IMG/VR virus record: IMGVR_UViG_3300020185_000161
Coordinates: 1-32,240 of that record
Length of the DNA stretch: 32,240 bases
From: a virus
Direction: 5' to 3' (one strand)
The notes beneath the pieces are model-generated. The model made no database searches, was not told where the DNA came from, and saw only the letters and a program-made list of their open reading frames with translations. This document shows, in pieces, positions 8,302 to 32,240 of the stretch. The first letter of the stretch is position 1. Each line of letters opens with the position of its first letter. Both the position numbers and the translations under genes were made by a program.

Positions 8302-8574
8302 ATGGCAAATAATTCACTTAAAGTCTCAGAACTGGCGACAGCGGCTAATGTCGCCAGTACTGATCGTGTTATGGTTCTGAGAGATCCAGCTGGTAGCGCT
8401 AGTGTTCGCACTGTTACTATGTCGAATTTCTCAGCCAATATCGTGGTTTCATCTAGCGCGCCTGCTAATTCTTCAGCAAATGGTATAGCTGGTAGTATTG
8501 CATATGATAGTAGCTATATCTACATCTGCACTGCTACGAACACTTGGAAAAGAACTGCTATCGCTAGCTGGTAA
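8302..8574 (+). CDS. Small virion-associated protein
   Basis: The protein has 90 residues with the N-terminus KVSELATAANVASTDRVMVL and the C-terminus GSIAYDSSYIYICTATNTWKR. Both segments recur at the ends of fibre and baseplate-associated proteins in marine T4-like phages. The start has no good Shine-Dalgarno sequence. A TATAAATT, one mismatch from the late box, ends only 5 bases before the ATG, so coupled translation from the upstream gene is more likely than a separate transcript. Probable structural or fibre-accessory protein. Confidence 0.75.
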   Translation: MANNSLKVSELATAANVASTDRVMVLRDPAGSASVRTVTMSNFSANIVVSSSAPANSSANGIAGSIAYDSSYIYICTATNTWKRTAIASW

Positions 8575-8589
8575 AGAATTAATTATAAA

Positions 8590-8982
8590 ATGAAAAATAT
8601 TGTTTTGAATGACGAGAATTTCTTGTTATATTGCGCGCATCATTACGACAACAGTAAATATACTTCTACTGAGGAATTTAACCATGACCTCAGTAGAATC
8701 AAATATATAAAGAAATTGATCACGCGATACATCGTCAATGACGAGCTGAAAGAAAGATTGATACTGAATCATATTATTATTTTAAATAATTGTTTCGGTC
8801 CGGAAGTTCTTTGTAAGTTGTTGTGGTTGAAACTAGAAAAACAGATTGAATATGTGAAACCATTTTTGGTATTGCTGGGTGTATTGCCTAGATACATATA
8901 CCATGTTGGCGATAAAGACTATATAGATACAGACTTAATACTAATGGACCAACATATAGTCGAAAGGCTCAGAGAACTATGA
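8590..8982 (+). CDS. Conserved T4-like phage protein of unknown function
   Basis: The 130-residue protein is mostly alpha-helical. It carries LNDENFLLYCAHHYDN at the start, a helical ERLILNHIIILNNCFGPE segment in the middle and a hydrophobic KPFLVLLGVLP later. I recall this pattern as a widespread unnamed family in T4-like marine phages, usually near tail or baseplate genes. The following gene starts inside its stop codon (ATGA at 8979-8982), so the two are co-translated. No catalytic motif is visible. Confidence 0.75.
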   Translation: MKNIVLNDENFLLYCAHHYDNSKYTSTEEFNHDLSRIKYIKKLITRYIVNDELKERLILNHIIILNNCFGPEVLCKLLWLKLEKQIEYVKPFLVLLGVLPRYIYHVGDKDYIDTDLILMDQHIVERLREL

Positions 8983-9239
8983 ATGAAGAGATCGCCGCAA
9001 ATGTCACTGGAGCAGCTGTTGTTGGTACAGGCGACAATAGCCAGGGTGTGACCTGGAAGCCACGCAATTCAAACGGTCGAAATATGATCGGTGGTGGTGT
9101 CAATACACGCGCTGGCATAATGAAGCCTAACGAGAAGAAGAAGAAGCTTTCCGATATTGTTAAGACAAACACACTGAAAAGCCTTACTCCTCTAGCTAAA
9201 ATGAAGCCCGCATTTAAGACATTAAAAAAGACTCTCTGA
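8979..9239 (+). CDS. Small basic hypothetical protein
   Basis: The protein has 86 residues. The N-terminal half is Gly/Asn/Val-rich and probably disordered, and the C-terminal half is strongly basic (NEKKKKLSDIVK, then KMKPAFKTLKKTL). It overlaps the upstream stop by 4 bases and is followed 1 base later by a GTG-started gene. I do not recognise it; its charge suggests nucleic-acid or membrane contact. Confidence 0.6.
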   Translation: MNEEIAANVTGAAVVGTGDNSQGVTWKPRNSNGRNMIGGGVNTRAGIMKPNEKKKKLSDIVKTNTLKSLTPLAKMKPAFKTLKKTL

Positions 9240-16849: not shown

Positions 16850-17404
16850 ATGGATTTACCTAAAAAAGATATGCTGAGCATAGAAGAACACAACTACTTC
16901 ATGTTCAATAAAAAGTTTGACGCCGCTTCGTGCGGTGAAGCCATGAAGTTTATTCTTGAACGGAATTTAATGGCGGAAAATAAGCCTAAAGAAATGAAGA
17001 TGTTGATCAATTCTCCAGGCGGCGAAGTCAACTCTTGTTTCGCTTTGGTTGACACTATGAAAGGTTCGCCAATCCCAGTACACACCTATGGGTTGGGATT
17101 GATTGCTTCTTGTGGTCTGTTGGCTTTTATTGCTGGCGAGAAGGGCAAACGTTACATTACCAGAAACACCAGTATCCTCTCGCATCAGTTTAGTTGGGGT
17201 AGCAGTGGTAAAGAACACGAGCTATTCGCTAAAGTTAAAGAGTTCGAGTATTCACAAGTACGTATGATTGACCACTACAAGAAGTGCACAGGGTTGTCTG
17301 AGAAAGAAATCCGTAAGTATCTACTACCACCTGAAGATGTTTGGCTGACTGCTAAAGAAGCTGTGAAATATGGTATTGCTGACGAAGTAGTGGAGTTTTA
17401 TTGA
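16850..17404 (+). CDS. clpP: ClpP-like serine protease
   Basis: The protein has 184 residues with the ClpP/crotonase fold order: INSPGGEVNSCFAL (oxyanion glycine strand), Ser87 in LIASCG, His112 in SHQFS and Asp163 in PEDVWLTAKEA. These correspond to the ClpP Ser-His-Asp triad. Classic ClpP has ASMGA around the serine; here Met is Cys. Phage ClpP homologues can act in prohead or protein turnover or work with host ClpX/ClpA, but no ATPase partner is encoded beside it. Its stop overlaps the next start. Confidence 0.88.
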   Translation: MDLPKKDMLSIEEHNYFMFNKKFDAASCGEAMKFILERNLMAENKPKEMKMLINSPGGEVNSCFALVDTMKGSPIPVHTYGLGLIASCGLLAFIAGEKGKRYITRNTSILSHQFSWGSSGKEHELFAKVKEFEYSQVRMIDHYKKCTGLSEKEIRKYLLPPEDVWLTAKEAVKYGIADEVVEFY

Positions 17405-18126
17405 TGTCTATGATTCGGTTTAGTACGGAAGAAGTATTTGATACAGATTCGCAAGAGTATCAAATACTTTATAATGCAGCGAAGGAAGTAGGCTCTACAC
17501 CTGGCGCTGTTGTTGAGATTGGCACTCGCCGCGGCGGTTCTGCTAAAATCATTATGGATGCATTAGTTGAGACTAATAGCGCCCAAGACCGCCCAATGTT
17601 TTGTATCGATCCATATGGCAACATTGATCTAGAAATCACCAATATCAACGCTTCAATCCATTATCCAGGGAAATATGAAGTTGAAGGTGATGCTATGTCG
17701 AAAGACGACAGCTTCGCCACTAAGTTTGATTATACTAATAGTATGCGGAATCGGATTATCCCGTCTTTGTATTATTATGCATTCCAAGCTGGCTTCAATT
17801 TTACTTTCTTCTGTTTGGAGGACACTGAGTTCTTTAAACGTTATGCCGATGGTGTTCCAATCTACGATGAAGAGAAAAAACTTGTGGATCAATACGCCTT
17901 TGTCTTCTATGATGGTCCTCATACAAACGAAGCCGTCGATGAAGAGATGGCGTTCTTCGTCCCGCGATCGCCTTTGGGTGCTGTGGCTGTTTTTGACGAT
18001 ATTTGGATGATGGAACACGATAAAATTGTAGAAGATAAGTGGTTTTTTAATCAGAAAGATACTGGCCAGAAATGGGAGATTCTAGAGAAAGGCGACATCA
18101 AAGCGTCTTATATTCGGGTTTCATAG
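17404..18126 (+). CDS. Class I SAM-dependent methyltransferase (Methyltransf_24-like)
   Basis: The 240-residue protein starts at the ATG that overlaps the clpP stop (TGATG). The SAM-binding motif is AVVEIGTRRGGSAKII near residue 37; an acidic motif II is MFCIDPYG; the late strand has FVFYDGPHTNEAV and AVFDDIWMM, which in related O-methyltransferases hold the metal-binding aspartates. Relatives include sugar O-methyltransferases of the TylF type. It lies 640 bases upstream of the heptose cassette, so a role in decorating the sugar is possible, but this is inference. Confidence 0.75.
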   Translation: MSMIRFSTEEVFDTDSQEYQILYNAAKEVGSTPGAVVEIGTRRGGSAKIIMDALVETNSAQDRPMFCIDPYGNIDLEITNINASIHYPGKYEVEGDAMSKDDSFATKFDYTNSMRNRIIPSLYYYAFQAGFNFTFFCLEDTEFFKRYADGVPIYDEEKKLVDQYAFVFYDGPHTNEAVDEEMAFFVPRSPLGAVAVFDDIWMMEHDKIVEDKWFFNQKDTGQKWEILEKGDIKASYIRVS

Positions 18127-18202: not shown

Positions 18203-18478
18203 ATGAGGGTTAATAATAAAATGAATGTCGTCATATATTCGAAACCAAAATGCGGTTTTTGTAATAATACAAAAGCCTTATTGAATTCCAAAGGTATCGG
18301 GTTCACAGAGATGGTTTTGGGGCAAGATTTTACAAGGGATTTCCTGATGGAAACTTTCCCAACAGCTAAGAGTTATCCGGTTATTGTCATCGATGGTTTC
18401 AATATCGGTGGTTTCAAAGAACTGCAAACTCAATTAAATGAACAAGTAGAAGACAACCGTAAACTACTAAACGAGTAA
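18203..18478 (+). CDS. Glutaredoxin
   Basis: The protein has 91 residues from the ATG at 18203 behind AGGAAA; the ATG at 18221 behind GAGGG gives an 85-residue alternative that begins at the fold. VVIYSKPKCGFC holds the redox Cys-Gly-Phe-Cys, SYPVIVIDG supplies the cis-Pro loop and IGGFKEL the glutathione-binding Gly-Gly. It is probably the electron donor for phage ribonucleotide reductase, filling the role of T4 NrdC, although it is separated from nrdA/nrdB by several genes. Confidence 0.92.
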   Translation: MRVNNKMNVVIYSKPKCGFCNNTKALLNSKGIGFTEMVLGQDFTRDFLMETFPTAKSYPVIVIDGFNIGGFKELQTQLNEQVEDNRKLLNE

Positions 18479-18491
18479 GAAAGTATAAATT

Positions 18492-18764
18492 ATGTATAGC
18501 CGTGATGAAGTTATTAAAGACCTACGCGCTGGTGTATTAGAAATCCGTTTCACTAAAGCGGATGGAACCACGCGTATTATGAAGTGTTCTCTGTCAGAGA
18601 AATTCCTACCACCTTCGTTCCAGAACCTAGACGAACAGGAACAAGAGAAAACCTTCCATAAAACTAACCCAGAAGTGGTTGCATGTTGGGATGTAGAAAA
18701 TGTTGGTTGGCGCTCATTCCGTATGGACAGCATTCAATATATTCAATTCTTGGATGCATACTAA
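18492..18764 (+). CDS. SH3-like beta-barrel phage protein (DUF2693-type)
   Basis: This protein of 90 residues has a pattern (VLEIRFTKADGTTRIMKCSL, then PEVVACWDVENVGWRSFRMDSI) that I recall from small phage proteins annotated as SH3 beta-barrel fold-containing. They occur widely in T4-like marine phages, function unknown; a nucleic-acid or protein-binding role is assumed. The next gene's ATG overlaps the stop (TAATG), which places this gene at the head of the heptose cassette transcript. Confidence 0.75.
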   Translation: MYSRDEVIKDLRAGVLEIRFTKADGTTRIMKCSLSEKFLPPSFQNLDEQEQEKTFHKTNPEVVACWDVENVGWRSFRMDSIQYIQFLDAY

Positions 18765-19201
18765 TGACAGGCGTTATCGGATACACATTCGGATCGTTTG
18801 ATTTGATGCATGCGGGCCACAGCGTTTTCTTCAGAGATTGTAGGAAGCACTGCGACCTTTTGTTTGTTGGACTACATACTGATCCCAGCACCGACCGTTC
18901 TAGTAAAAATAAACCCGTCCAGACTGTATACGAGCGGTACGTGCAGCTTATTAATTGCCAATGGGTTGATCATGTTATTCCATATGAAACAGAAGCTGAT
19001 TTGATCAATCTTATTCAGACCGCTAACCAGATTGATGTTCGTTTCTTAGGTTCGGATTATCTTTTAAGCAGTTTCACAGGCAAAGACTTGTGTGTTGCGA
19101 AAAATATCGATATTAAATATATCGATAGGCATCATTCATTTAGTTCGTCCGAATTAAGAAACAGAGTAGGAAACCATTATGTCGAATCGTGGACCGAGTA
19201 G
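18764..19201 (+). CDS. Cytidylyltransferase-fold sugar-phosphate nucleotidyltransferase
   Basis: The 145-residue protein starts at the ATG overlapping the upstream stop. GSFDLMHAGH (10-19) is the HxGH nucleotide-binding motif, PVQTVYERYVQL and VDHVIPY follow, and HSFSSSELRNRV replaces the usual (I/R)ST(S/T)xI motif. This is the TagD/HldE-C family, which joins an NTP to glycerol-3-phosphate or heptose-1-phosphate. Neighbouring GmhB-, HddA- and GmhA-like genes make heptose-1-phosphate the likely substrate, giving ADP- or CDP-heptose. The nucleotide cannot be read from sequence. Length is closer to TagD (about 130) than to the HldE domain. Confidence 0.82.
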   Translation: MTGVIGYTFGSFDLMHAGHSVFFRDCRKHCDLLFVGLHTDPSTDRSSKNKPVQTVYERYVQLINCQWVDHVIPYETEADLINLIQTANQIDVRFLGSDYLLSSFTGKDLCVAKNIDIKYIDRHHSFSSSELRNRVGNHYVESWTE

Positions 19202-19746
19202 TGAATAGGGCGGTATTTTTTGATCGTGATGGGGTTATTAATCCTCTGATCGAGAGACCGAACGGATCTCTAACATCGCCATGGAATATAAATGAGATGG
19301 AGATATATTCTAGCGTCCCATATAACATGTCGCGATTGAAGGACTTCGGATTCCTGGTTTTTATTGTAACAAACCAACCAGGAATTGCTGATGGTGATAT
19401 GACTAGCAACGAGCTTCGGGTTATCAACGAAAATCTTATGGATAAATTAGAGATCGATAGTATTCTCTGTGCGTTAAGGAAACATGCTTCCAGCTACAAA
19501 CCTAGTAATGGAATGTTGGAATCGACCATAGAGAAATACAACATCGACCGTAATGAAAGCTGGATGATTGGTGATAGATGGAAAGACATAAAACCAGCGA
19601 ATGATAGCAGAATCAAAAGTATATTATTGCATAGCAGCGCTACGACTGATTGTAGTGGACTTGCTGTTCCAGATTACGAGTCGTACAATATCAGCGATGC
19701 TTGTGAAATTATTATCGGCGAGATGTTAACAAATAGCTTGACTTAA
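19201..19746 (+). CDS. gmhB: HAD phosphatase, GmhB-like (heptose bisphosphate phosphatase)
   Basis: I start at the GTG at 19201, which overlaps the upstream stop (TAGTG) with GGA 8 bases before; a GTG at 19189 is an alternative. The product is about 181 residues. FFDRDGVIN is the HAD nucleophile motif, VTNQPGIADG the second motif, SYKPSNGML the Lys motif and MIGDRWKDI the metal-binding acidic motif. GmhB removes the C7 phosphate from heptose-1,7-bisphosphate. The zinc-loop cysteines of E. coli GmhB (CPHH...CDC) are missing. It sits between the nucleotidyltransferase and glycosyltransferase genes. Confidence 0.82.
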   Translation: MNRAVFFDRDGVINPLIERPNGSLTSPWNINEMEIYSSVPYNMSRLKDFGFLVFIVTNQPGIADGDMTSNELRVINENLMDKLEIDSILCALRKHASSYKPSNGMLESTIEKYNIDRNESWMIGDRWKDIKPANDSRIKSILLHSSATTDCSGLAVPDYESYNISDACEIIIGEMLTNSLT

Positions 19747-19766
19747 ATAAAATATTATCGTATAAT
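19738..19766 (+). promoter_or_regulatory. Family promoter for the glycosyltransferase operon
   Basis: TTGACT (19738-19743), 17 bases, consensus TATAAT (19761-19766). It overlaps the end of the GmhB-like gene. It gives the second half of the heptose cassette its own start, with GAGGAGA before the ATG at 19797. The operator-like inverted repeat is degenerate here. Confidence 0.85.
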
Positions 19767-19796
19767 ATGTTTATAATATAATTGAGGAGAAATATA

Positions 19797-20792
19797 ATGC
19801 AAGGCTTCGAAGAGAATGATATCTCTAAGAACTCTAATGGTGGAACTGAAATCACCAAACGCGCTTTAACAGAATACGTACCAGCTGAGTTGGTGGAACA
19901 CTTCCAGATTATTCCTAGTCGTGTTCGTGATATTAATCCAGAGAAGATTCGGGTCTACTGGCAGCACGATCTAGCTGGTGATCCAGAAGTAAACCACCTA
20001 GCTGGTTCAGAAAGCCGAGATCGTTTTCATCAGTTTGTGTTCAGTTCGAACTGGCAGCTCAATGACTTTGTTACTAAGTTACAGTTCCCGAGAAACAAAA
20101 AGGTTAGTGTTATTGAGACACCAATCAAGCCTATCGAGGTCAAACAGAAAGACTTTAATGATAAGATCCGATTAATTTATTTCTCCACACCGCACCGCGG
20201 GCTTGATGTTCTGGTTCCTGTGTTTGAGCATTTGGCTAAGACGTATAGCAACATCCACTTGGATGTTTTCTCTAGTTTCAAGATTTATGGGTGGGAAGAT
20301 TCTGATCAGCAGTACGAACCTTTGTTCGAGAAAGTCAGACAACACCCACAAATGACATATCATGGTAGTGTCGATCAGGCCACTCTGCGTAATGCATTAG
20401 CTGATGCCCATATCCTTGCTTACCCTAATATCTGGGAAGAAACGAGCTGTCGTGTTCTCATCGAATCAATGTCAGCTGGTTTGGTGTGTGTTCACCCTAA
20501 CCTAGCTGCATTACCGGACACTAGCGGTGGACTGACTTCGATGTACCAGTTTGATGAATCACCAAACGAGCATGCAGCTGTATTCCATAGAAATCTAGAT
20601 CATGCTATTCAGGTTGTTGCTAATGAACCTATCCAGAATTATCTCAAATTTGTTAAGGCTTATGCGGATTCAAGGTTTAATATCGATAAGATTTCGTCTC
20701 AATGGGAGAGTCTTTTGACTGCATTGAAGGAAGAGTATCCCACTGTCGAATCAAGGGTTCTTGCTAAACAGATGTTTACGTATTCGACATGA
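19797..20792 (+). CDS. GT-B family (GT4-like) glycosyltransferase
   Basis: The protein has 331 residues from the ATG at 19797, which has GAGGAGA upstream; an in-frame TTG at 19782 lies in the ribosome site. The N-terminal domain has NGGTEITKRAL (donor-fold Gly loop) and VYWQHDL. The C-terminal Rossmann domain has IRLIYFSTPHRGLDVLV and YHGSVDQATLRNAL. EETSCRVLIESMSAG carries the E-x7-E motif of retaining GT4 enzymes. It shows no likeness to T4 alpha- or beta-glucosyltransferase that I can see. Flanked by four heptose-metabolism genes, it most likely transfers the NDP-heptose made by them. The acceptor is unknown. Confidence 0.85.
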   Translation: MQGFEENDISKNSNGGTEITKRALTEYVPAELVEHFQIIPSRVRDINPEKIRVYWQHDLAGDPEVNHLAGSESRDRFHQFVFSSNWQLNDFVTKLQFPRNKKVSVIETPIKPIEVKQKDFNDKIRLIYFSTPHRGLDVLVPVFEHLAKTYSNIHLDVFSSFKIYGWEDSDQQYEPLFEKVRQHPQMTYHGSVDQATLRNALADAHILAYPNIWEETSCRVLIESMSAGLVCVHPNLAALPDTSGGLTSMYQFDESPNEHAAVFHRNLDHAIQVVANEPIQNYLKFVKAYADSRFNIDKISSQWESLLTALKEEYPTVESRVLAKQMFTYST

Positions 20793-21775
20793 TTGTAGTA
20801 AAAGCTCCGCTCAGGGTAAGTTTTTTTGGGGGAGGTTCCGACCTCCCTCAGTACTACAACAAAAAACCAGGGATGTGTCTTTCTACTTCCATCAATAAAT
20901 ATATCTACTTGGCTGTCAATAAATGCGTGGCTAATCATATCAGAGTTGTGTATTCAGAGTTCGAATATACTGATAGTATTAATAATATCCGTCACGATCG
21001 AGTAAGAGAAACACTAAAACATTTCTCATTGACCAATAATATCGAGATCAGTAGTTTCTCGGACGTGCCGACCAAAGGTACTGGTTTGGGTTCGAGTTCG
21101 ACCTTTACTGTTGCAATGGCCCAAGCGGCGAGCTACCTATCAGCACCACTTAAAAATAAAATCACCAGAGCCGATTTGGCTGAACTTGCTTGTGATATCG
21201 AGATCAATAAGTGCAGGGAACCAATTGGCAAGCAAGATCAATACGCGGCGACTTATGGTGGACTCAATCAGTATCACTTCCATTCCCAAGGCGAGGTGTT
21301 CGTCCAACCAGTCTCGCATAATAACCACGCTTATGGTCTACAAAACAACTTGATGTGTTTTGCTACTGGTAATACTAGATACGCTTCTATGATTTTACAT
21401 AAACAGACTGAAGATCTGAATTCAGACAAAAACGATGTAATCGGTAAAACAGCTCAGATGGTTGATATGGCATTTCAGGGATCAAAATATTTGTCCTGTG
21501 GTAAACTAGATGATTTTGGACAGCTTCTTCATGAAGCTTGGATGGTCAAGAAAACAATCAATTCCGGTATCTCTAATGATAATATTGATTGTATGTACGA
21601 AACAGCATTGAAGGCTGGAGCGCTCGGTGGGAAGTTGTTGGGCGCTGGTGGTGGTGGATATCTATTATTGTATGTTCCTACTAAATATCAGAGAAACGTA
21701 ACAGACGCTATGACGGATTTCAATAAATTCCCCTTTGCCTTTGAGACTAAAGGTTCGACTTTGAAAGTGATATGA
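20789..21775 (+). CDS. hddA: D-glycero-D-manno-heptose 7-phosphate kinase (HddA-type GHMP kinase)
   Basis: The protein has 328 residues, and its start overlaps the glycosyltransferase stop (ATGA). KAPLRVSFFGGGSDLP is the N-terminal GHMP motif as in HddA, KGTGLGSSSTF (96-106) the ATP-binding motif 2 and GGKLLGAGGGGYLLL the motif 3. HddA phosphorylates C1 of heptose-7-phosphate with ATP. Other sugar GHMP kinases, such as fucokinase or galactokinase, differ in the N-terminal motif. The adjacent isomerase and phosphatase genes strengthen the heptose assignment. Confidence 0.88.
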   Translation: MIVVKAPLRVSFFGGGSDLPQYYNKKPGMCLSTSINKYIYLAVNKCVANHIRVVYSEFEYTDSINNIRHDRVRETLKHFSLTNNIEISSFSDVPTKGTGLGSSSTFTVAMAQAASYLSAPLKNKITRADLAELACDIEINKCREPIGKQDQYAATYGGLNQYHFHSQGEVFVQPVSHNNHAYGLQNNLMCFATGNTRYASMILHKQTEDLNSDKNDVIGKTAQMVDMAFQGSKYLSCGKLDDFGQLLHEAWMVKKTINSGISNDNIDCMYETALKAGALGGKLLGAGGGGYLLLYVPTKYQRNVTDAMTDFNKFPFAFETKGSTLKVI

Positions 21776-22368
21776 TGAGAGAATTAAAAGAATATATTCC
21801 TGAGTATAAAAAGATGATTGACGAAGCTTACGCTAGTATGGATATTCCTGAGATGGAGAAAGCTTTGTATATCCTGAATAAAGCTATGACCGACGGGAGA
21901 AACATATTCACATGCGGTAATGGTGGCTCGGCTGCTATAGCCGAACACATAACATGTGATTTTAATAAAGGTGTTGCATCAGACACAGAAATTAGACCCA
22001 TGTTTGTACCGTTGGCATCGAATATCTCACTGCTAACTGCAATTGCTAACGATCACAACTGGTATGAAGTGTACTCGAAACAGATTGAAAATACAAGATC
22101 GATCGGTAACGTATTATTTGCGATTTCCTCAAGCGGTGATTCACTTAATATTGTGAATGCATGCAAAGCGGCGAAAGATAAAGGATGGGGAGTGATTTCA
22201 TTTGTCGGCTTTACTGGTGGTGCAGTGAAAGATCTTTCGGATGCATGCATACATATAAAATCCAACAACTATGGCGTCGTTGAAGATTGCCATCATATGC
22301 TGATGCATATATTGGCGCAACACTTGCGCATCGCACATCAATCGTCTGACTATGGGATGAAATTATAA
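21772..22368 (+). CDS. gmhA: Sedoheptulose-7-phosphate isomerase (GmhA-like SIS protein)
   Basis: The 198-residue SIS-domain protein overlaps the kinase stop (ATGATG). FTCGNGGSAAIAEHI is the sugar-phosphate loop, ISSSGDSLNIVNA the second loop and EDCHHMLMHILAQHL contains the histidine of the GmhA active site. The usual (E/T)-E pair after AxHF is C-D here (HITCDF), so the E. coli Glu65 position appears to be Asp62. The enzyme converts sedoheptulose-7-phosphate to heptose-7-phosphate, the first step of the pathway. It ends the cassette. Confidence 0.88.
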   Translation: MMRELKEYIPEYKKMIDEAYASMDIPEMEKALYILNKAMTDGRNIFTCGNGGSAAIAEHITCDFNKGVASDTEIRPMFVPLASNISLLTAIANDHNWYEVYSKQIENTRSIGNVLFAISSSGDSLNIVNACKAAKDKGWGVISFVGFTGGAVKDLSDACIHIKSNNYGVVEDCHHMLMHILAQHLRIAHQSSDYGMKL

Positions 22369-22931: not shown

Positions 22932-23798
22932 ATGATTATCGTGGATCTTAACCAGGTAATGCTATCTAACCTTCTATCGCAACTTGGTAGCCATACTAAT
23001 GCAAAAATTGAAGAGAATATGGTCAGACATATGATCATCAATACTTTACGGTCATATAAAGTGAAGTTTGGTGCTGAATATGGTGAAATGGTCATAGCAT
23101 GTGATAATAGGAACTACTGGAGAAAACAGATATTTCCTTATTACAAAGCCAACCGCAAGAAGAGCCAAGCTAAATCCGAACTAGATTGGAGCGAGATCTT
23201 CGGTTGTATGGATAAAATCAGATCAGAACTTAAAGAGTTTTTCCCCTATAGAATCATTGACATTGAATCAGCTGAGGCTGATGATATCATTGGTACGCTG
23301 TGTACAGAGTTTGGTCAAACTATTGGTGGTGATCCAATCCTCATACTTTCAGGCGATAAAGACTTCATCCAACTACACGTGTATGGTAATGTTAAGCAGT
23401 ACGACCCAACACGTAAACGCTGGATCAAACATAACGATCCTGAAACATATCTCATTGAACATATTATGAAAGGCGATAGTAGCGACGGAGTACCTAACAT
23501 TCTTTCGTCTGATAATTGCTTCGTTGTCGGCGAAAGACAAAGACCATTGACTGCGAAACGTATAGAGAAATTTAAAAAGATCACTGATGATGAGTGGCCA
23601 GAGTACCCGGAAACAAATATTTCTAGAAACTATTTTAGAAACGCACAGCTGATTGATCTTTCACACACGCCCGATACTATTAAAGAAAACGTTATGGTAT
23701 CGTATAACAAACAAACAGGTAAGAACAGGTCTAAACTTTTAGATTATTTTACCTCATTCAAACTCCGAGAGTTAACACAACACATCGGTGATTTTTAA
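22932..23798 (+). CDS. rnh: T4 RNase H-like 5'-3' exonuclease (FEN family)
   Basis: The protein has 288 residues (T4 Rnh has 305). Metal ligands in order: Asp5 (IIVDLN), Asp58 (ACDNR), Glu115, Asp117 and Asp118 (AEADDII), Asp142 and Asp144 (SGDKDF), and Asp182/Asp185 (KGDSSDGVPNI). The helical arch region has KANRKKSQAKS. In T4 the enzyme removes RNA primers and adjacent DNA from lagging-strand fragments. It works downstream of the primase encoded at 9694. Confidence 0.93.
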   Translation: MIIVDLNQVMLSNLLSQLGSHTNAKIEENMVRHMIINTLRSYKVKFGAEYGEMVIACDNRNYWRKQIFPYYKANRKKSQAKSELDWSEIFGCMDKIRSELKEFFPYRIIDIESAEADDIIGTLCTEFGQTIGGDPILILSGDKDFIQLHVYGNVKQYDPTRKRWIKHNDPETYLIEHIMKGDSSDGVPNILSSDNCFVVGERQRPLTAKRIEKFKKITDDEWPEYPETNISRNYFRNAQLIDLSHTPDTIKENVMVSYNKQTGKNRSKLLDYFTSFKLRELTQHIGDF

Positions 23799-27574: not shown

Positions 27575-28600
27575 ATGATTAACTTTAATAAAATCAAAAA
27601 AAGCGTTGCGATCGCAGGCATCGGCGTTGTTCTGCTCGCATCAGCTTCTTGCATAATTGACCCGACAACGGCGCAAAAAAGCTCAAGTGAGGTATACCAG
27701 CAATCCATTAACGCTGTTGTGATGATACAAAACGACCCTCCGAGCAGTATGGGGACAGGATTCTTTATTGATGAAAATGTAATCGTAACAAATTATCATG
27801 TGGTCGAGGGAATGACAAATGTCATTGTATACGCAGATAGTTCAAACGCGCCTTATCACGCCGAAGTATTACATTCCTCACCATACCATGATATTTCTAT
27901 TTTAAGGATTAAAGACTGGGATGATTTCAAAGCTACTGCAGACTGGAACGCTTTAACTATCTCAGACGAAGATCCCAATATTGGAGATATTGCTTATACA
28001 TTAGGACATCCATGGGGTGTTTACTGGACTTTCTCCACTGGAATCATTAGCGGCACCAAAAGACGCGCGCCTGGCTCGGTAGGAGGGGAAGTATTGTTCC
28101 ATCAAACGGACGCTAATATGTTTGAAGGTAACTCGGGCGGACCTCTACTCAACGTCGATGGTGACGTTATCGGTATCAACTCCCGAATCCAACTTGGCAA
28201 CGGAGGCAGTCATGCATATGCTATTCCAGGCGTAATAGCGAATAAAGTTATCTATGATTTCTTGACTTATTCCAAGACAAATGTCCCGAAACTAGGCGTC
28301 AACCTGGGATACTCTGATGAATGGGAAATTGATGTTGAAGCTTTCGCCTCTACTGACTCGCCAGCTGAGAAAGCTTGTGGTCTGAGCGAAGGCGATATTA
28401 TCTTGAGGATCAAAAAAGAAACAACGGTGGATCAGTATGATAACGAAACAACATATGATTTTGTAGATGTAGGTATATCGGCTGATCTTATCTACTTTAT
28501 TCAAAAACTGAATTTGGACGAAGGCGCCATTGTCATGGAGATCAAAAATCAATACGATGGCACTATTGAAAATAAATCTTGCACGATCCAACGTCCATAA
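27575..28600 (+). CDS. HtrA/DegP-like trypsin-fold protease with lipoprotein-type signal
   Basis: The protein has 341 residues. Residues 1-26 are a signal peptide, MINFNKIKKS then a hydrophobic stretch ending LLASASC; Cys26 is the candidate lipidated residue, though Ser at -3 is atypical. The triad is His75 (TNYHVV), Asp106 (YHDISIL) and Ser187 (GNSGGPL), with GTGFFI and YAIPG flanking as in DegP/DegQ. The C-terminal 100 residues, with SEGDIILRIKKE, look like one PDZ-type domain. Such proteases act in the periplasm on misfolded or outer-membrane proteins. A phage copy with an export signal suggests envelope remodelling or protein quality control during infection. Confidence 0.88.
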   Translation: MINFNKIKKSVAIAGIGVVLLASASCIIDPTTAQKSSSEVYQQSINAVVMIQNDPPSSMGTGFFIDENVIVTNYHVVEGMTNVIVYADSSNAPYHAEVLHSSPYHDISILRIKDWDDFKATADWNALTISDEDPNIGDIAYTLGHPWGVYWTFSTGIISGTKRRAPGSVGGEVLFHQTDANMFEGNSGGPLLNVDGDVIGINSRIQLGNGGSHAYAIPGVIANKVIYDFLTYSKTNVPKLGVNLGYSDEWEIDVEAFASTDSPAEKACGLSEGDIILRIKKETTVDQYDNETTYDFVDVGISADLIYFIQKLNLDEGAIVMEIKNQYDGTIENKSCTIQRP

Positions 28601-31737: not shown

Positions 31738-31770
31738 ACTTGTATAACTTAAAAAAAAGGAATAGATTAA

Positions 31771-32240
31771 ATGTCTAACTCAATCGATAATAAAACACTA
31801 AGAGGCGCTAACCTAGAAGGCACTGACCTAGAAGGCGCTAATCTATATAACGCTGATCTAAGAGGCGCTTATCTAAAAGACGCTGATCTATATAACGCTA
31901 ACCTAACAAAAGCTAACCTAAAAGGCGCTACCCTAACAAACGCTGATCTATCAAAAGCTAACCTAGTAGGCGCTTGTCTATATAACGCTAACCTAAGAGA
32001 CGCTAACCTAAAAGGCGCTAACCTAGTAGGCGCTAATCTAACAGGCGCTTGTCTATATAACGCTAACCTAAAAGGCGCTAATCTATATAACGCTGATCTA
32101 AGAGGCGCTTATCTATATAACGCTAACCTAGAAGGCACTGACCTAGAAGGCGCTAATCTATATAACGCTAATCTATATAACGCTAACCTAGAAGGCGCTA
32201 ATCTATATAACGCTAACCTATCAAACGCTAACCTAGAAGG
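31771..32240 (+). CDS. Pentapeptide-repeat protein, 3' end outside window
   Basis: After MSNSIDNKT the frame is open to the end of the window with about 30 consecutive A(N/D/Y)L-x-x pentapeptides ([20 protein letters not shown] type). This sequence folds as a right-handed quadrilateral beta-helix. Some members mimic double-stranded DNA and inhibit gyrase; most have no known role. The DNA units are 15 bases and often identical (for example ggcgctaacctagaa), so the array has expanded recently. Own family promoter and AAGGAA site. Function cannot be inferred further without the end of the gene. Confidence 0.9.
31796..32240 (+). repeat. 15-base codon-phased tandem array
   Basis: About 30 units related to gcgctaacctagaag vary mainly at codons 1, 2 and 5 of each pentapeptide. 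Longer units of several pentapeptides recur almost unchanged (compare 31810-31850 with 32130-32170), which suggests block duplication. Confidence 0.9.

Follow-up and report, generated by a model that had tools for sequence, protein, structure and literature searches.

Enzymes that make nucleotide-activated heptose are already known from viruses. Tang et al. (Science 2024, as described in PMC11461863 and PMC11573728) reported that a viral isomerase, kinase and heptose nucleotidyltransferase make ADP-heptose; a phosphatase is said to be absent in viruses (PMC11461863), and the Arg of the STTR5 motif, (F/L)XXGRSTT, marks nucleotide-promiscuous heptose nucleotidyltransferases (PMC11573728). The cyanophage SynMITS9220M01 has also been annotated with heptose genes (PMC7378029). 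Sugars other than glucose are known on phage DNA: RB69 carries arabinosyl-hydroxymethylcytosine (PMC6024577), for which a SIS-type isomerase is the candidate (PMC6024577, PMC12838424), and Thanatos carries a pentose on cytosine (PMC12838424). Here we describe a five-gene cassette (18764-22368) in the IMG/VR record IMGVR_UViG_3300020185_000161, a 32-kb fragment of a T4-like phage genome, analysed over its whole length of 32,240 nucleotides (the window). The product of the cassette is very probably a nucleoside diphosphate (NDP)-heptose; that the cassette makes this sugar and also glycosylates the phage's own DNA with it is a proposal that we consider evenly poised.

Like the viral set of Tang et al., the cassette has an isomerase, a kinase and a nucleotidyltransferase. 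Unlike that set, it includes a GmhB-like phosphatase gene and a dedicated glycosyltransferase (GT), and its nucleotidyltransferase (CyT) lacks the STTR5 motif, reading HHSFSSS in the window; the relatives too have an aromatic residue rather than Arg before S(S/T)(S/T). All five open reading frames lie on the + strand, intact, without internal stops and tightly packed, with 4-nt ATGA-type overlaps at the junctions from GT through HddA to GmhA (Table 1). A preliminary description of this DNA had named five adjacent genes of these families, and both the profile and the PDB matches agree with it. The families that it had proposed for checking (GmhA, HddA, GmhB and HldE-C/TagD) were each matched, with all heptose-family scores well under the NCBIfam equivalog cut-offs; the assignments are therefore at family level rather than orthologue level, and it is family membership, active-site residues and genomic context, rather than orthology, that suggest function.

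Table 1. Coordinates of the cassette genes and of neighbouring features in the window
Feature	Position	Strand	Basis
CyT, HldE-C/TagD-like nucleotidyltransferase, 145 aa; proposed NTP:heptose-1-phosphate nucleotidyltransferase	18764..19201	+	family matches, motifs
GmhB-like HAD phosphatase, 185 aa; proposed heptose-1,7-bisphosphate 7-phosphatase	19189..19746	+	family, PDB, motifs
Candidate sigma70-like promoter, TTGACT-17-TATAAT, just upstream of the GT gene	19738..19766	+	consensus match only
GT, retaining-type GT4/GT-B glycosyltransferase; start TTG 19782 or ATG 19797	19782..20792	+	family, fold, EX7E
HddA-like GHMP kinase, 328 aa; proposed heptose-7-phosphate 1-kinase	20789..21775	+	family, PDB, motifs
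GmhA-like SIS isomerase, 198 aa; proposed sedoheptulose-7-phosphate isomerase	21772..22368	+	family, PDB, residues
Methyltransf_24/TylF-like methyltransferase	17401..18126	+	PF13578 1.5e-7; homologue in 18/80 GT loci; syntenic in close relatives
Glutaredoxin, conserved left neighbour of the GT locus	18203..18478	+	homologue in 43/80 GT loci, also in Cr30, DLP6 and phiM12
WYL_2 (DUF2693) small protein, conserved neighbour	18492..18764	+	PF10902 1e-12; 54/80 GT loci
T4-type RNase H / 5' exonuclease, conserved right neighbour of the GT locus	22932..23798	+	phrog_107 9e-55; 67/80 GT loci

The kinase matches the HddA model NF049969 (4.5e-42; 144.7 bits against a cut-off of 600 bits) far ahead of any other GHMP kinase (62.7 bits), along with the GHMP families PF00288 and PF08544. 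Its PDB neighbours are HddA-type sugar kinases (3k85, 1e-35; 4n3o, 1e-30; 4usm), and its GHMP motif residues are kept in 12 relatives; it has no PfkB-type kinase domain of the HldE kind, belonging instead to the GHMP family. The isomerase matches PF13580 (1e-17), TIGR00441 (GmhA, 7e-31) and the GmhA structures in the PDB (2e-23), and its H59, D63, E171 and H179, two His and two acidic residues at GmhA metal or catalytic positions, are conserved across relatives. The preliminary description would have counted matches of these two enzymes to non-heptose sugar pathways against its reading; by profile and structure they are placed with HddA and GmhA. The phosphatase matches PRK08942/NF006506 (GmhB; 2e-20, below the cut-off), TIGR00213 (2e-16) and the GmhB structures 3l8e and 2gmw (about 1e-8), and has the motifs DxD, VTNQPG, a Lys and GDRWKD; the zinc loop of GmhB is not evident in its sequence. 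CyT matches CTP_transf_like PF01467 (2e-13), phrog_7878 (3e-30) and the HldE C-domain model TIGR02199 (8e-18; 64.6 bits against a cut-off of 181.5), and carries HxGH as well as the phage-specific motif S(S/T)(S/T)xLRxR, both of which 10 relatives share. GT matches Glyco_trans_1_4 PF13692 (3e-8), PF00534 and phrog_2170 (3e-45), and its EX7E glutamates, E220 and E228, are invariant in 57 relatives. Its AlphaFold2 model (mean predicted local distance difference test score 91.8) is matched by Foldseek to GT4 enzymes with E-values down to 7e-13.

In the route we propose, GmhA would convert sedoheptulose-7-phosphate to a heptose-7-phosphate, HddA would add a phosphate at C1, GmhB would remove the 7-phosphate, and CyT would transfer a nucleotide to give NDP-heptose; transfer of GMP is not predicted, ATP or CTP being the more likely donor. 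The bacterial loci of the nearest HddA homologues contain GmhA in 51 of 80 cases, GmhB in 56, HddC in 56 and CyT in one, whereas among 80 phage GT loci the PF00483-type HddC is found in none and CyT in 54. The pathway thus appears, from gene content, to be a hybrid in which an HddA-type kinase works with an HldE-C/TagD-type nucleotidyltransferase replacing the bacterial HddC, and the product is probably not GDP-heptose. We rejected an HddC-based GDP-heptose route, as HddC is missing from all 80 phage GT loci. HddA works with the alpha-1-phosphate and HldE-C with the beta-1-phosphate; because the cassette pairs the two types, the gene families do not fix the anomer or the nucleotide. The complete route from sedoheptulose-7-phosphate to NDP-heptose claimed in the preliminary description is well supported by families, active sites, grouping, the bacterial HddA neighbourhoods and the transaldolase described below, with the amendment that its enzymes mix the HddA and HldE-C/TagD types.

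A GT-profile scan of IMG/VR gave at least 600 matches; the phage counts given here come from the best 80 loci, of which 46 span both flanks. The same gene order recurs at 54-69% kinase and GT identity in the independent contigs L035 (up to the contig end), L037, L038 and L040, and at 99-100% identity in L008 and L009, contigs of the same population, which excludes a chance grouping. A window that was chimeric or unique is likewise ruled out by this recurrence in independent contigs and by uniform G+C content (0.405 in both cassette and window). The preliminary description had treated the grouping as an observation on one phage and suggested a survey for the five-gene order; the survey shows instead that the cassette is a widespread locus in related T4-like phages. 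Among the best 80 loci HddA is present in 69, CyT in 54, GmhB in 33 and an epimerase of the short-chain dehydrogenase/reductase (SDR) family in 26; the isomerase is of GmhA type in 32 and of a divergent SIS type in 27, and the locus is mostly set between glutaredoxin/WYL_2 and RNase H. Kinase, isomerase and nucleotidyltransferase stand beside the same GT in 41 of the 46 full-span loci, joined by the phosphatase in 25. The three main versions are the window type (CyT-GmhB-GT-HddA-GmhA), the SDR type (CyT-SDR-GT-HddA-GmhA) and the transaldolase type (CyT-SIS-GmhB-Tal-GT-HddA). An S-adenosylmethionine decarboxylase-like gene (PF02675; for example L010:2653-3036) adjoins the cassette in 42 of the best 80 loci, and in L037, the closest large relative, a putative 2-oxoglutarate (2OG)-Fe(II) oxygenase (PF13759, under the cut-off; 8545-9186) directly follows GmhA.

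The transaldolase (PF00923, 1.5e-39; TIGR02134, 267 bits) is found in 21 of the 46 full-span loci. Of the 22 full-span loci that have the divergent SIS isomerase, 21 carry it, whereas no locus with the window-type isomerase does; the gene is placed between GmhB and GT (for example L074:5256-6014 and L107:5261-6001). Transaldolase makes sedoheptulose-7-phosphate, the substrate of the pathway, and its presence is the strongest single argument for heptose as the sugar; together with the family and PDB matches, the conserved active sites, the fixed grouping in dozens of phages and the neighbourhoods of bacterial HddA genes, it underlies our reading of the product. It is improbable that the cassette yields some other activated sugar, either another heptose isomer such as altro-heptose or a sugar that is not a heptose. 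The distance of every heptose-family score from its equivalog cut-off would fit such a product, as would the SDR epimerases and methyltransferases of relatives, which imply more decoration, and the likeness of CyT to CTP-dependent enzymes (TagD/ECT-like), which is as great as to HldE-C. The isomerase also has Asp and Glu at the positions of Glu65 and Gln172 in E. coli GmhA. Against a different sugar, the transaldolase and the consistent grouping of GmhA, HddA and GmhB all point to sedoheptulose-7-phosphate, and the kinase scores far higher with HddA than with other GHMP kinases.

The preliminary description had listed host lipopolysaccharide (LPS), phage DNA and virion protein as possible acceptors of the heptose. 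The phage's own DNA has gained the most support, as relatives encode enzymes of hydroxymethyl-pyrimidine synthesis, and we put its case as balanced. G013, whose gene order is exactly that of the window, has a dCMP hydroxymethylase of T4 type (64% to T-even homologues; PDB 1b49, E=1e-88), as does G015. A TET/JBP oxygenase is encoded in G014 (again the exact window order), G018, G022-G025, G028, G029, Cr30 and DLP6, with the TET active-site HxD...H conserved. Most of the large contigs in the window's sub-clade have one or the other hydroxylation enzyme, and no record among these contigs, Cr30 and DLP6 carries both. When contigs were chosen for TET only, GT stood next to HddA in 7 of 10, among them each of the three that exceed 100 kb; when chosen for dCMP hydroxymethylase only, the same held for two of six (43-60 kb pieces). 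Sampling based on gp23, intended as an unbiased control, supplied only four contigs over 100 kb. This co-occurrence of GT with a hydroxymethyl-pyrimidine enzyme is the pattern expected if GT sugars hydroxymethylated DNA, as in T4, RB69 and Thanatos. GT has glutaredoxin on one side and RNase H on the other, with NrdAB, ThyX and PhoH close by. In DLP6 and phiM12 this GT likewise follows glutaredoxin, in a comparable position, and no heptose genes accompany it, suggesting that GT is ancestral and the sugar supply variable. In the window phage, the GT4-fold transferase would place heptose on a 5-hydroxymethyl-pyrimidine made by a hydroxymethylase encoded beyond the window, and the heptosylated DNA might be shielded from host nucleases. 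The wider proposal, that a lineage of T4-like phages makes NDP-heptose by the hybrid route (some with their own transaldolase) and places it on genomic 5-hydroxymethyl-pyrimidines supplied by dCMP hydroxymethylase or TET/JBP, falls in our view a little short of an even case.

A number of observations weigh against DNA as the acceptor. There is no hydroxymethylase within the window, as the preliminary description had noted for dCMP hydroxymethylase; the window is a fragment, however, and relatives G013 and G015 encode this enzyme. If the window phage has a hydroxymethylase gene, it would be expected shortly beyond the end of the fragment: in the relatives G013 and G014, gp42 or TET is placed about 16-20 kb downstream of GT. 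The same-population contig L403 breaks off close to the window end, at an array of tandem pentapeptide-like coding repeats (31770-32240) that forms the right end of the record and likely explains why assemblies stop there. The SDR-type sister clade (G021, G030 and G031; 151-164 kb) has GT and heptose genes with neither gp42 nor TET/JBP, a filters-off profile search for a divergent TET in that clade gave nothing significant, and phiM12 has GT and likewise neither hydroxylation enzyme; either another enzyme serves in these phages or the acceptor differs. No C5-cytosine methyltransferase to feed TET was found in 16 records, which suggests that thymine is the likelier substrate in the TET phages or that the base is made otherwise. 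TET-like genes also occur where the cassette GT is missing, in phage C48C1 and others. As to the transferase itself, its fold is a generic GT4 one, shared with enzymes whose acceptors are small molecules, lipids, glycans or peptides, T4 DNA glucosyltransferase is not among its top 50 Foldseek matches, no T4 agt or bgt homologue was found by phmmer in 15 records and the window, and its isoelectric point is acidic (family mean 5.9). Many of the contigs share ancestry, so that the co-occurrence counts overstate independence, and G019 and G027, which belong to the window's sub-clade and have neither hydroxylation enzyme, are too short (45-62 kb) to inform. The literature searched, the coverage of which is incomplete, yielded no description of heptosylated phage DNA.

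The main rival to DNA as acceptor is host LPS or another surface glycan, heptosylated during infection for receptor masking or superinfection exclusion, which we consider unlikely on balance. Heptose is a classical sugar of LPS and capsule, the bacterial HddA, GmhA and GmhB homologues lie in HddC-containing sugar clusters, and the GT4 fold and the SDR-type clade, without any known DNA hydroxylation enzyme, would both fit a glycan acceptor. Moreover, the glycosyltransferases and rfaE of Pelagimyophage were assigned by their authors to O-chain modification (PMC7029224), and the heptose genes of SynMITS9220M01 were called LPS genes (PMC7378029). The locus is nevertheless fixed within a module for DNA and nucleotide metabolism, outside the tail-fibre and host-recognition region, none of the genes near it was recognised as a flippase, a polymerase or a lipid-linked transfer gene, and a DNA hydroxylation enzyme accompanies GT in the window's sub-clade. 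That GT glycosylates a protein, of the virion or of the host, or else a small molecule, appears improbable. The top folds for GT do include BshA (2jjm, 3mbo), SenB (8rz3, 8jjn) and the SdgB/GtfA serine glycosyltransferases, which act as peptide O-GlcNAc transferases, and protein heptosylation is known from Aah (PMC11461863), but TM-scores of 0.55-0.69 place GT only within the GT4 group, which covers all of these acceptors, and a conserved acceptor-protein gene beside GT was not identified.

The surroundings of the cassette are those of a nucleotide and DNA metabolism module. From the left, the window encodes a tail-fibre-like protein (Peptidase_S74 end), primase, ThyX, NrdA, NrdB, a SegE-like endonuclease and ClpP, followed by the methyltransferase, glutaredoxin, the WYL_2 protein, the five cassette genes, a 158-aa protein, RNase H and a PhoH-like protein, the last so labelled from its sequence and its synteny with phiM12 and RHph_I1_18. 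The methyltransferase is possibly a sugar O-methyltransferase. The sigma70-like match before GT agrees with the consensus at 11 of 12 positions and is the only such match in the window (0.08 expected). A second element, TTGACTTT-N-TATACTAC, occurs in seven copies on the + strand (14603, 16221, 22393, 25696, 27289, 30446 and 31709), none being expected from shuffles, and is probably a host-type early or middle promoter of the phage. A trypsin-like protease gene (27575-28600; PF13365, 4e-27) weakly resembles the protease part of RT-Protease defence models; PADLOC gave no matches among the five cassette proteins.

Heptose genes in phages are already known, from Cr30, SynMITS9220M01 and the viral ADP-heptose enzymes. 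To these the present loci newly add a phosphatase, a transaldolase, a nucleotidyltransferase that makes the pathway a hybrid, a dedicated and conserved GT, and an association with enzymes of hydroxymethyl-pyrimidine synthesis. If DNA is indeed the acceptor, the sugars of phage DNA (glucose, arabinose, a pentose) would extend to heptose, and the question why viruses encode NDP-heptose enzymes, which stayed open after the 2024 work on viral enzymes (PMC11573728), would be answered for one large phage group. Cr30, being in culture, makes that question testable. A DNA acceptor would also bring new reagents, namely an NDP-heptose pathway and perhaps a DNA heptosyltransferase, as well as a modification that could be tried against host nucleases. 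Should the acceptor be something else, the occurrence across many environmental phages of a conserved hybrid heptose pathway, equipped with a phosphatase and a transaldolase of its own, is still new at the family level.

Among cultured phages, the Caulobacter phage Cr30 (KF301602/NC_025422; laboratory host C. crescentus CB15) shares the arrangement Glutaredoxin-SDR-GT(49%)-HddA(36%)-orf-GmhA(41%), with CyT (44%) near RNase H across the start of the record and genes annotated as heptose kinase and isomerase; it differs in that its heptose genes are split and no GmhB homologue was found in its genome. The genes annotated 'SNF2 DNA repair protein' in Cr30 (NC_025422 59353-60681) and DLP6 (KU682439 27179-28525) (L031, L032) are TET/JBP 2OG-Fe(II) oxygenases near sliding-clamp genes. 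Bacterial HddA loci (GmhA-HddA-GmhB-HddC) share the isomerase, GHMP kinase and phosphatase families with the cassette, and often an SDR, and differ in having PF00483-type HddC where the phage loci have HldE-C/TagD-type CyT; the human faecal phage scaffold L005 (MT835644.1) has such a bacterial-type heptose cluster, with an HddC-like nucleotidyltransferase, HddA, GmhA, GmhB and SDR. The DNA glycosylation systems of T4, RB69 and Thanatos are likewise found in T4-like phages that combine a hydroxymethylase, sugar-nucleotide genes and a GT, whereas the window GT resembles GT4 enzymes and shows no homology by phmmer to T4 AGT or BGT, the cassette phages often have TET/JBP instead of dCMP hydroxymethylase, and the sugar would be heptose.

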